Assembly: GCF_014856545.2 (NCBI RefSeq)
Contig: NZ_CP109811.1
Coordinates: 3,156,001 to 3,220,000 of the forward strand
From: Mesobacillus jeotgali
GTDB taxonomy: Bacteria > Bacillota > Bacilli > Bacillales > Cytobacillaceae
Length of the DNA: 64,000 nucleotides
Direction of reading: 5' to 3'
Each line of letters begins with the position of its first letter. The first letter of the stretch is position 1. This document shows, piece after piece, positions 11,510 through 57,143 of the stretch. Position numbers and translations under genes: made by a program. Under the pieces are notes generated by a model, which was not told the DNA's origin, searched no databases, and saw only the letters and a list, made by a program, of their open reading frames with translations.

Positions 11510-11641
11510 ACCTCCATCTTCTCCCATCCAGACTATACTGTCGGCTTTGGAATCGCACCAAATCCTGCCCTTACAGGCTCGCGGGCTTAGAGAATTCTTC
11601 TCATTACCGCCGATCGGGAATTTCACCCTGCCCCGAAGATA
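11510..11641 (-). ncRNA. FMN riboswitch (RFN element)
   Basis: On the minus strand the conserved RFN blocks occur in order: TTCGGGGCAGGGTGAAATTC, CCCGATCGGCGGTAATG, AGCCCGCGAGC, GCAGGATTTGGTG, AATTCC-like, then GCCGACAGTATAGTCTGGAT and GGGAGAAGATGGAGG. This is a complete FMN aptamer of about 130 bases, with the ribU terminator after it. Confidence 0.97.
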
Positions 11642-11865
11642 GACCATATTTATTTAACAAGTTTATTATACTGAAAAAAAGATATTTTGTGAAGGTGTAT
11701 GCTTGTGACGATTTTATGTCTGAAATGGCCTAAAATGCATTTTGGTCAATAAGAGGATCGTGATTAGCAAAAATTTCTGCTAAATTCGGAATAACAGAAT
11801 ATAATTAGATTAAATCAATTGATTTTGGTCAGCGCTTGCATTGTATTCATGAACAATTCGGGAGT

Positions 11866-17500: not shown

Positions 17501-17635
17501 TATTAACTATATTATTTTTAGAATGGAAATGGAAGGAATTTTCGTGGACAAAATATTCGAAGAAATTACGTAAAATTAAAATTCTTTTCCAAAATGAGGC
17601 AGGCTATGGAATAAACAAATCAAATGGAAAGGTGC

Positions 17636-17783
17636 TAACGGACACTTTTCTCCTGATTTCCTTGGGGTTTGTCCGATATAGGAGTTCTTAAGGACACTTT
17701 TTCCTTAATTCCACTTCGGTTTGTCCGATAGACGTGCTCTAACGGACACTTTTTCCTTAATACCACTTCTGTTTGTCCGATAG
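17636..17783. repeat. Array of three 52-bp tandem repeats (family 1)
   Basis: Units begin at 17636, 17688 and 17740, exactly 52 bp apart. Each has GGACACTTTT near one end and TTTGTCCGATA at the other, giving inverted arms (CGGACA/TGTCCG) around a pyrimidine-rich centre. The same family forms a seven-unit array at 56155. The rest of the 440-bp gap holds only the sigX promoter and the resE terminator. Confidence 0.9.
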
Positions 17784-17814
17784 AGCCATATAAACGATCA
17801 TTTCCTCTTCAAAA

Positions 17815-36602: not shown

Positions 36603-36683
36603 AGTCCAATAATTGGTTAAGATGGGATGTTCATTAAGGAAGAAAGAAGATGAAAAGGTTATTGTGGAATGACTAGTTGGGTT

Positions 36684-36787
36684 TATTGGCGACCTGTTTT
36701 TCCAGATTCTTGATTTTTTGGTCACCAATACACCTTATTGGTAACCTATTTTTCCAGATTCTTGATATTTATCACGCCAATCTGGTT
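36684..36787. repeat. Two 52-bp tandem repeats (family 2)
   Basis: Units start at 36684 and 36736, 52 bp apart. Both contain TTTTTCCAGATTCTTGAT at the centre; unit 1 has inverted arms TATTGGCGACC and GGTCACCAATA, while unit 2 has a decayed right arm. The period and layout equal those of family 1, but the stems differ. Apart from the spoVA promoter and sigF terminator, nothing else is visible in this 320-bp gap. Confidence 0.85.
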
Positions 36788-54837: not shown

Positions 54838-55080
54838 AGAAAAGCGTAAGCGCCTTGGTCAGCCCCGACAAGCGCTGGAGGGCCGACCGGTGAAGTCGTT
54901 CTTTGACTTCATTGGGCGGACCGAACTCGAAAAGCGGAGGCGACTGCTCAACTCCGAAAAGCGCTGGAGGGCCTGACCGTGAAGTCGTTCTTTGACTTCA
55001 TGGGCAGGACCGAAGCGTCTCGAGGAGTTAGGAGCCGCAGCTAGACAAGCGACTCGAGGGGCTAGGCGCTGGAGCTGGAC
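54838..55080. repeat. G+C-rich intergenic repeat element with two internal copies
   Basis: About 240 bases, richer in G+C than the surroundings. AGCGCTGGAGGGCC recurs at 54871 and 54960 (89 bp apart), each followed by a TGAAGTC/GACTTCA hairpin around GTTCTTT and by GGACCGAA. The 5' end AAAGCGTAAGCGCCTTG also occurs at 46130. It looks like a dispersed palindromic repeat. It is not coding. Confidence 0.75.
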
Positions 55081-55121
55081 ACTCCTCAAAGTAATATAAT
55101 TCCATCTCAAAATTTATGGTG

Positions 55122-55207: not shown

Positions 55208-56146
55208 TTGAGAAGAGCGTTCCGCGTGCTATTTTCTTTTTTTGTTTGTCCTGACCTCGCTCGGGGTTTTTATATCCAATAAAGTCATGTTCTTAAAAAG
55301 GAAAGATGACGAAGAAATTTTCAACCGAGAAGCGAAAGCCGGCCACCTTGTGCCTGAAGAATATGATTCACTGCCAAAAACGGAAGTAACCATTCCTTCA
55401 TCCTTTGGCTACTCATTGAAGGCTGTCCTCGTTGAACCTCACGACACAAACCGTTACATCATCATTGCCCATGGAGTTACGCAGAGCAAGACCAATTCGG
55501 TAAAATATATGAACCTATTCTTGAACCGGGGCTTCAATGCGGTTATCTACGACCACCGCCGCCACGGGGAGTCCGGCGGAAAGACCACCAGCTATGGATA
55601 TTATGAGAAGTTTGACCTTAAATCAGTGGTAGACTGGCTAAGGAATGAAAAGGGTCCGGATTTGCTTCTTGGCATCCACGGAGAGTCAATGGGAGCCGCA
55701 ACTCTGCTCCTTTATGCAGGCATGCTTGAGGATGGTGCGGACTTCTATGTGGCAGATTGCCCTTTCTCTGACTTCAGTGAACAGCTCGCTTACCGCATCA
55801 AGGAAGAGGTCAAGTTTTGCCGCCAAAACTATTGCTGCCTGTCGCCAGCATGTTCGTCCGCATCCGTGATAAATATTCTTTGAGTCAGGTATCCCCGATT
55901 GCGGTTATCGAAAATATTAAAAACCCTATCCTGTTCATCCATAGCCGCAAGGACGACTTCATCCTGCCATCGATGACCGAGGCTTTGTTCGAACAGAAAC
56001 AAGGGCCAAAGAAGCTATACATGGCAGAAAATGGGTTACATGCTCAATCGTACAGCGAGAACCGGGAGCAATACGAGAAGGTGCTCGATGAATTCCTTGA
56101 GGAATATATCTTTGCCGATCATGGAATTACGGATGCGGACCATTAA
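55208..56146 (+). pseudogene. yqkD: yqkD, alpha/beta hydrolase with two homopolymer frameshifts
   Basis: Start TTG with GGAGG at normal spacing. The N-terminal signal anchor (RRAFRVLFSF then FVLTSLGVFISNK) is broken by one extra T in the run at 55237-55243. The central part reads intact (VIYDHRRHGESGGKTTSYGY; nucleophile Ser in GIHGESMGAA). A missing T at 55815-55818 shifts the frame again, and the rest continues as PPKLLLPVASMF with catalytic Asp (HSRKDDF) and His (NGLHAQSY). Restored length is about 313 residues, like B. subtilis YqkD. Sequencing error is likely. Confidence 0.85.
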
Positions 56147-56154
56147 GGCTTTTC

Positions 56155-56530
56155 TATCGGACACTTTTCTCTTGTTCCAGCTTCTGTTTGGCCGATAGGG
56201 ACCTTCTATTGGACACTTTTCTCTTCTTCCGGCTTCTGTTTGTCCGATAAACCCTTTCTATCGGACACTTTTCTCTCGTTGCAGATTCTGTTTGTCCGAT
56301 AGAGCCCTTCTATCGGACATTATTCTCTTCTTCCGGCTTCTGTTTGTCCGATAGACCCTTTCTATCGGACACTTTTCTCTCGTTGCAGATTCTTTTTGGC
56401 CGATAGAGCCCTTCTATTGGACACTTTTCTCTTGTTTCGGCTTCTGTTTGTCCGATAGACCCTTTCTATCGGACACTTTTCTCTCGTTGCAGATTCTTTT
56501 TGGCCGATAGAGCCCTTCTATCGGCTTCGT
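56155..56530. repeat. Seven-unit 52-bp tandem array (family 1)
   Basis: Units start at 56155, 56207, 56259, 56311, 56363, 56415 and 56467, all exactly 52 bp apart; a partial eighth begins at 56519. Each has TATCGGACA at the left and TGTCCGATA (or TGGCCGATA) at the right, about 26 bases apart, and a pyrimidine-rich centre. Units 3, 5 and 7 share CTCTCGTTGCAGATTCT; units 2, 4 and 6 share a different centre (GGCTTCT), showing a 104-bp higher-order repeat. The rest of the gap holds no gene. Confidence 0.95.
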
Positions 56531-56597
56531 ATCACGTATGGCCGTGAGGATTGAGCCTCTCAATAAAAAAAGATCGACTCATCCCTGAGCCAATCCT

Positions 56598-57143
56598 TTA
56601 CTGTTTTTCTCCCTGGCGATCGATTTCTTTGCCAGCGGCGTCCAGTGCCCTGACTTCCTTGTAATCGCCAATTGCGTAATAATAGCGCTCGTTTTCTTTT
56701 TCAAAGATTTCTATTTTGGTAAACTTGCCATCCGGTCCTGCAGCTTCTATTGTTTTGATGTCCGGATTCACGACTTTCCCGAAAATCACGGGAATTTTCG
56801 TATCCAATGTTCCGTCTTCTTTAAAGGTTGTGAAAGTGTCGGCATACAGGAGCATGAAATCATTCTTATAATAAGTCCAGTGGTTATGCCCCGCATTTTC
56901 CCAGCCTTCTTTTTCGCTGCCTTTGATATAGGCGACCGCCAGCGCGTCGAATGTGCCTGAGCCTTCTTTTTGCTCTGTTGTGTAAAAGATGAGATATCCA
57001 TCCTCCACCTTTTCCTTGTGGACGATTTGTTTGATGTTGAACGGAATATCGTTTTGGATTGCTTCTCCCGCAGTCTTATAAGCACATGCCGATAGCACAA
57101 GCACGCATAAAATGATTATGGCTGACCTCCACAATTTTCCCAT
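56598..57143 (-). CDS. Putative lipoprotein, unknown function
   Basis: 181 residues. Signal peptide with lipobox LSAC (Cys20). The mature part is beta-rich, with Trp/Tyr (NHWTYYKNDFMLLYADTF), and no domain is recognised. Likely anchored at the outer face of the membrane. GGGGGAGAAAG precedes the ATG. Confidence 0.8.
   Translation of the reverse strand: MGKLWRSAIIILCVLVLSACAYKTAGEAIQNDIPFNIKQIVHKEKVEDGYLIFYTTEQKEGSGTFDALAVAYIKGSEKEGWENAGHNHWTYYKNDFMLLYADTFTTFKEDGTLDTKIPVIFGKVVNPDIKTIEAAGPDGKFTKIEIFEKENERYYYAIGDYKEVRALDAAGKEIDRQGEKQ

Follow-up and report, generated by a model that had tools for sequence, protein, structure and literature searches.

The array behind yqkD

The window, that is, the whole 64-kb stretch of DNA analysed here, carries between yqkD and a lipoprotein gene a tandem array of seven units with an exact period of 52 bp, closed at 56524 by the truncated left arm of an eighth (Table 1). 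The left arms start at 56155, 56207, 56259, 56311, 56363, 56415 and 56467 and the seven right arms at 56189 to 56501, both in steps of exactly 52 bp, and TRF calls the array as 52 bp x 7.2 copies (82% matches) and as 104 bp x 3.6 copies (93%), which confirms the spacing of the seven units and the 104-bp higher-order period given in a preliminary description of this DNA. The arm pair is TATCGGACA/TGTCCGATA. Arms frame all seven units, as that description had it, but both are letter-perfect in only two of them (none would be expected in shuffled sequence); TATTGGACA stands in two of the left arms and TGGCCGATA in three of the right ones. Among units 3, 5 and 7 the 25-nt centres differ at 0-1 positions, and among units 2, 4 and 6 at 2-4, the range across the whole array being 0-8 of 25. 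An alternation of odd and even centres, and with it an expansion by two-unit steps, had been proposed; both fit units 2 to 7 but not unit 1, the centre of which is closer to the even units than to the odd ones.

The array begins 5-9 bp downstream of the yqkD stop at 56146, without room for a terminator between them, and overlaps no ORF of at least 60 aa, in agreement with the earlier statement that it lies in none. Its + strand is pyrimidine-rich and its - strand, the leading one, is purine-rich. Because the arms alternate along the array, two hairpin readings exist, of which the one across the unit junctions (right arm, 9 nt, left arm) is the tighter, with an 11-bp stem and a 5-nt loop in the better units. 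The compact unit is a dyad of 27 bp (arm, 9 bp, arm) with a spacer of 25 bp, which sets the dyads five helical turns apart.

Two further arrays lie in the window. The three-unit array belongs to the same family, hereafter F1, and stands behind what appears by eye to be the terminator of the minus-strand gene on its right. The two-unit array has other arms, and its dyad is no better than those of shuffled sequences, so its membership in the class described below is weak.

Table 1. Positions of the arrays, dyads and neighbouring terminator hairpin in the window
Feature	Position	Strand
Array, seven 52-bp units and truncated eighth left arm	56151..56524	+
Dyad 1 (right arm, 9-bp linker, left arm; arms imperfect)	56189..56215	
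Dyad 2	56241..56267	
Dyad 3	56293..56319	
Dyad 4	56345..56371	
Dyad 5 (arms imperfect)	56397..56423	
Dyad 6	56449..56475	
Dyad 7, left arm truncated	56501..56524	
Terminator hairpin of the lipoprotein gene, between gene and array; bidirectional-looking by eye	56568..56599	-
Second array, F1 family, 3 units x 52 bp, left arms degenerate	17632..17787	+
Two-unit 52-bp array, different arms ATTGG..CCAAT	36683..36781	+

Copy number and distribution of the F1 family

The lipoprotein gene is present in 20 of the 21 genomes of the genus, our own included, and 19 of these loci (the own genome and 18 congeners) also reach yqkD. Counted by arm motifs, the gap between the two genes holds no copy in G002 and G008, one or two in G003 and G018, seven in the own genome, eight in G017 and about nine in G001. 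Arms of the F1 family occur in 16 of the 19 orthologous gaps, while in G010 a TTCGGACA-family array stands in place of F1. The active amplification suggested in the preliminary description is supported by this range, and its comparison between relatives gives one or two units in the two nearest ones against seven here. In the gaps of G006, G005 and G013 (L231, L229 and L235, respectively), the array is preceded by a distinct GTCACCAATA/TATTGGTGAC hairpin, which resembles the arms of the window array at 36683.

Across the own genome (G000) the F1 inner-arm pattern yields 59 forward and 51 reverse matches, counts in which one dyad can score on both strands, against 0 and 0 for the reversed pattern, and those listed fall in at least 20 separate places. 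Nineteen of 20 congeners have at least one match, up to 61+69 in G017, and the family extends to other families of the order as 52-spaced series or many matches (29+33 in G035, 7+11 in G055). Among the matches listed from public genomes, F1 arms at a 52-bp step were found in Mesobacillus, Bacillus sp., Pseudoneobacillus, a Cytobacillus record and several Trichococcus species, and a Mesobacillus boroniphilus record contains a unit that matches one of G004 letter for letter. Most of the remaining taxa have one match per record among those listed, which probably represents chance. An array unique to this assembly had been named as grounds for rejecting the earlier account; homologous arrays elsewhere in the genome, in congeners and in Trichococcus show that it is not.

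A phylum-wide arm pattern is found at 171 sites in the own genome and 209 in G006, the other 396 genomes having 0-2, near the control level of 0-3. Of 249 genomes of the order, 10 contain the exact F1 dyad: six of the seven from the own genus have 4-30 sites, and four further genomes a single site. The records L041, L045, L049, L064, L071, L081 and L084, which are titled Chryseobacterium sp. ISL-80, carry the Bacillaceae arrays and are probably mislabelled. Matches in Streptomyces (L046, L048, L057, L105 and L092) proved to be not F1 but a different, near-perfect 46-bp palindrome (TATCGGACAGCGACACGCCG..), which is repeated across records and is built unlike the 52-bp arrays.

One period with many arm sequences

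The period is not confined to F1. TRF was run on 456 kb of the own genome, in 23 stretches at round coordinates away from F1 matches, and 12 of the 18 arrays with a period of 36-70 bp had one of 51-53 bp; their arms include TTCAGACA, TGACAG, TGACGGACA (as TGTCCGTCA), CATAAGG and CCGTGA. Stretches of other Bacillales taken blind (1.46 Mb) gave 14 of 21, and such arrays occur in eight of the 20 genomes of which at least 40 kb was sampled. The controls gave none, with 0 of 3 arrays in 313 kb of non-Bacilli (43 of the 80 titled loci of the public-genome arm scan, 40 further loci being untitled) and 0 of 2 in 77 kb of distant Bacillota; L128, one of the untitled loci outside that non-Bacilli control, holds a 51-bp array of 2.6 copies. 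When all arrays with a period of at least 12 bp outside long ORFs are considered, 52-53 bp accounts for 11 of 16 in the own genome and 12 of 40 in other Bacillales. Throughout, arrays and units are non-independent samples. The period of 52-53 bp thus recurs across at least six arm families, as helical phasing would have it. Before ctsR, about 840 bp away and at ~0.1 Mb on the chromosome, lies a 22-unit array of the TTCAGACA family (L186, 1214-2361).

A second non-coding class, with a period of 20-22 bp, makes up 14 of the 40 arrays of other Bacillales outside long ORFs (L211 8142, L213 16108, L254 4559 and L284 1959, among others). Both period clusters lie near whole helical turns, about five for 52-53 bp and about two for 20-22 bp.

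Constraint on spacing and on the dyad

Steps between F1 dyad centres are exactly 52 bp in 248 of 279 cases, the linker is 9 bp in 343 of 390 and the spacer 25 bp in 383 of 536 pairings; the loci behind these spacing counts and behind the variant counts given below overlap partly in species. For each substitution there are 0.057 indel events between adjacent units (284 pairs) and 0.369 between flanking segments of the yqkD locus (45 pairs), unit and flank pairs both being filtered on divergence and length.

Whether the arms are held complementary depends on the level at which they are compared. Between families, we used 19 of 25 hand-picked representatives, chosen by the TGTC/GACA anchor; L267, L277, L195 and L341, where the axis had been chosen by pairing, were dropped, as were L276 and L223, in which the anchor (TGTC-N17-GACA) is two bases shorter. 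Arm cells were paired in 87.1% of cases as against 72.1% when shuffled, 23 cells were changed on both sides as against 9.5, and the covariation score was 0.356 as against 0.126 (sd 0.031), each with 0 of 500 shuffles as extreme; slid versions reached a covariation score of at most 0.115. Doubly changed pairs (5 against 4.3; 233 of 500 shuffles) and pair types (11 against 10.5; 253 of 500) were not above the shuffled level; three of the five measures therefore exceed all shuffles, and the two least sensitive to relatedness do not. At the foot of the arms the columns GTC and GACA are invariant in these anchor-chosen representatives. When each array consensus is scored by its best 9-pair dyad, 28 of 46 reach 8 or 9 pairs, and the remaining 18, with 6 or 7, fall inside the shuffled range. 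Within F1, in contrast, variants among 310 distinct dyads are mostly uncompensated (T-T 78, G-A 38, A-A 21), and arm mismatches show little G-U bias (G-T/T-G 57, A-C/C-A 43), which means that what F1 preserves is not a paired RNA. Selection on structure, as suggested in the preliminary description, has to be recast accordingly: complementarity of the arms is kept between families and hardly within this one.

Gene context and replication polarity

Genes were taken from plain ORF calls, and terminators were located with a home-made scan. Eleven of the 37 own-genome arrays lie between ++ genes, 11 between -- genes, nine between convergent and three between divergent ones, with three at an edge, whereas 279 ordinary gaps divide into 88 ++, 88 --, 43 convergent and 60 divergent; convergent gaps are somewhat favoured and divergent ones avoided. 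Two of the 37 overlap an ORF call. Of 41 gene ends, 22 have a terminator ahead of the array and two have one beyond it; the array behind yqkD is an exception in having none ahead of it on that side.

The purine-rich strand is the leading one in 35 of the 37 arrays, as against 177 of 244 intergenic controls. Mean leading-strand purine content is 0.626 in arrays and 0.524 in controls, and it reaches at least 0.58 in 31 of 37 and 23 of 244, respectively. GC skew, read over 41 stretches, places the replichore boundary at 2.56 Mb. On the positive-skew replichore 20 of the 22 arrays have a purine-rich + strand, and on the other all 15 have a purine-rich - strand; the two reversed arrays lie at 571161 and 1589109, and some array values are near one half. 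Array orientation follows replication in three of three cases with head-on neighbours on both sides and in 17 of 19 with-fork cases; because only three arrays lie between head-on genes, the directions of replication and of the genes are poorly separated. Outside the genus, polarity matches the local GC skew in 12 of 14 arrays, four of the 14 coming from one stretch and two being near one half. Among grouped places in congeners, the oriented F1 motif lies as expected at 6 of 11 in G009, 7 of 8 in G011 and 13 of 17 in G019, and at 12 of 16 in G017 among the matches listed, polarity being read here by eye with the terminus assumed at mid-chromosome. Polarity in congeners is less tidy, and several of the exceptions look orthologous. 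The strand asymmetry of F1 resides mainly in the spacer.

Taken together, these arrays form a large non-coding class of the Bacillales, of which the usual unit is a 27-bp dyad, made of two inverted half-sites of ~9 bp with ~9 bp between them, and a spacer of about 25 bp, repeated at 52-53 bp whatever the arms; spacing varies less than the flanks do, copies turn over fast, and the purine strand is nearly always the leading one.

What the arrays might do

An action at the level of DNA is favoured by the spacing, the location and the replication polarity. In particular, we tentatively propose that the arrays are helically phased, replication-oriented platforms for protein, a reading that we would give rather less than an even chance and in which protein binding is an inference. 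Acting as double-stranded DNA, each dyad would be a putative site for a dimeric DNA-binding protein, and the five-turn spacing would put the dimers on one face of the DNA in a co-operative row. For the replisome, a translocase or a nucleoid protein, such a row could serve as a mark on chromosome segments or as an insulator of them, and the row would have a direction, since the spacer strand is fixed relative to replication. The placement, often behind terminators, would mean that transcription disturbs the row less, and copy number would grow by unequal exchange or slippage in one- or two-unit steps. The differing arms would call for several proteins or a lax specificity, which counts against this proposal, as do the many half-site variants tolerated in F1. 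Further points against it are the two covariation measures and the 18 dyad scores that do not exceed shuffles, the start of the window array so close behind yqkD that no terminator fits, the scarcity of the SpoIIIE octamer in the arrays, the two reversed arrays, the poor separation of replication from gene direction, and the looser polarity in congeners. Pfam searches with 20 proteins encoded near large arrays turned up no neighbouring regulator that recurs as a candidate for the cognate protein, the families that recur being GNAT acetyltransferases (three places) and ABC ATPases (two). Rather unlikely, in our estimation, is the broader proposition that the arrays are a chromosome-organising code of the Bacillales, in which five-turn dyads and a leading-strand purine spacer would give segments direction through one or more candidate proteins, and arms would co-evolve with lineage-specific proteins while the period stays constant. 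Binding, if real, would place the arrays with the most numerous repeated sites on the chromosomes of these bacteria and would open a direct way to a factor of the nucleoid, of replication or of segregation; without it, a period and a polarity shared across unrelated sequences would offer a clean test of how replication shapes bacterial satellites.

The latter case corresponds to the main rival, possible though on balance doubtful, according to which the arrays are functionless satellites driven by replication: hairpins would form on the lagging-strand template, template switching would keep the arms complementary, slippage would change the number of units, and the expansion or survival of only one orientation would produce the polarity. 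Repeats can be unstable in an orientation-dependent manner, and the leading-strand purine polarity would fit such instability, just as the fast turnover with local homogenisation fits a satellite. The correction of palindromes through template switching, discussed in an excerpt of PMC4060949, and the failure to find a cognate gene among the 20 neighbouring proteins also speak for it. Turnover and polarity are accounted for in this way, but the period common to families with unrelated arms in several genera is not, and neither are the indel rate, about 6-fold lower than in the flanks, nor the uncompensated variation within F1.

Known polar motifs and palindromic repeats were also considered. 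The KOPS of FtsK is a polar chromosome motif; bcr1 and other MITE-like repeats are non-coding, occur in Bacillaceae and have terminal inverted repeats. The 52-bp class likewise consists of non-coding Bacillaceae repeats, but of short tandem units at fixed spacing, with no single transposon-sized element. Such MITE-like repeats, bcr1 included, are named in an excerpt of PMC3733652, which also characterises REP/BIME sequences as palindromic repeats tagged by GTAG and CGTC. REP/BIME arrays are the closest known kind, the palindromes being extragenic, dispersed and tandemly grouped in both, and F1 is indeed a short, dispersed, many-copy extragenic palindrome. The 52-bp class differs from them in that several families with unrelated arms share one exact period of 52-53 bp, in its replication polarity, in a foot that is a paired TGTC/GACA in the 19 anchor-chosen representatives rather than a GTAG or CGTC tag, and in not requiring a Y1 (RAYT-type) transposase. 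The SRS of SpoIIIE, another polar motif (PMC5869595), resembles the arrays, together with KOPS, in an orientation set by replication and a purine-rich leading strand, and the F1 linker includes AGAAGGG, seven letters of SRS; those motifs are scattered octamers, unlike the tandem 52-bp arrays. An SRS/KOPS cluster can be rejected, as no strand-biased octamer enrichment was found in the 37 arrays: the SpoIIIE octamer GAGAAGGG occurs twice, both times in one array, GGGNAGGG does not occur, and AGAAGGG occurs 26 times on the leading and 13 on the lagging strand. We found no description of such 52-bp arrays among the open-access papers listed by our searches, and a search of open-access text for both arm strings returned, among the matches listed, unrelated papers only.

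The likeness to REP bears on the view, which we consider decidedly unlikely, that the arrays are a non-autonomous mobile element moving via single-stranded DNA in the manner of IS200/IS605 or REP-RAYT, with hairpins recognised on the lagging template and hence oriented by replication. Dispersed copies at no fewer than 20 places with replication polarity would suit it, as would the common foot, bearing in mind that the representatives were chosen by that anchor. Mobility driven by RAYT or Y1 is nevertheless disfavoured: PF01797 (Y1 transposase) has no match in G006, G015 or G016, which contain 39, 38 and 27 F1 pattern matches, and its single match in the genome of the window lies more than 1 Mb away. 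At the one locus compared, moreover, the presence of F1 arms in 16 of the 19 yqkD gaps makes jumps look rare. An origin from a phage or plasmid was rejected, blastn of the array having returned no phage or plasmid copy and viral contigs three single-unit matches only.

It is very improbable that the arrays serve as RNA, as tandem 3' UTR stem-loops that stabilise or terminate transcripts, even though the whole array folds strongly (z -6.2 on the + strand and -7.0 on the -, with single pieces at -1.3 to -8.0), centroid folds retain several junction hairpins on both strands, five of the seven terminator-like calls of the region fall inside the array (1.4 in shuffles), and yqkD ends within 9 bp of it. 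The uncompensated F1 variants and the terminator found ahead of the array at about half of the gene ends make an RNA stem-loop an unlikely target; the small excess of G-U over A-C, an orientation that tracks replication in the three head-on contexts, and an exact spacing that has no evident reason in RNA point the same way.

A degenerate or CRISPR-like array, suggested by geometry alone (dyad repeats, 27 + 25 bp), has a negligible probability and is refuted by its defining feature, since spacers are not unique but near-copies of one another within an array (as in L100 and L108), arrays are dispersed over at least 20 loci, and no cas gene occurs among the 20 neighbours scanned, mostly of other-family arrays.

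Other features of the window

At the gathering score, the sole Rfam match in the window is an FMN riboswitch on the minus strand (11512-11644), away from the array; a nematode snoRNA match beside the array is sub-threshold. The yqkD-like hydrolase gene (55242-56146) is split into two ORFs by a frameshift in the assembly, and its 3' part aligns with one base fewer than that of most congeners, which would reflect a sequencing error or a recent pseudogene. Positions 54839-55081 are occupied by another repeat (GAAAAGCGGAAGCG...), roughly 83-89 bp long and containing a GAAGTC hairpin, and similar repeats were seen in L171 (470-625) and L205 (18518-18691).
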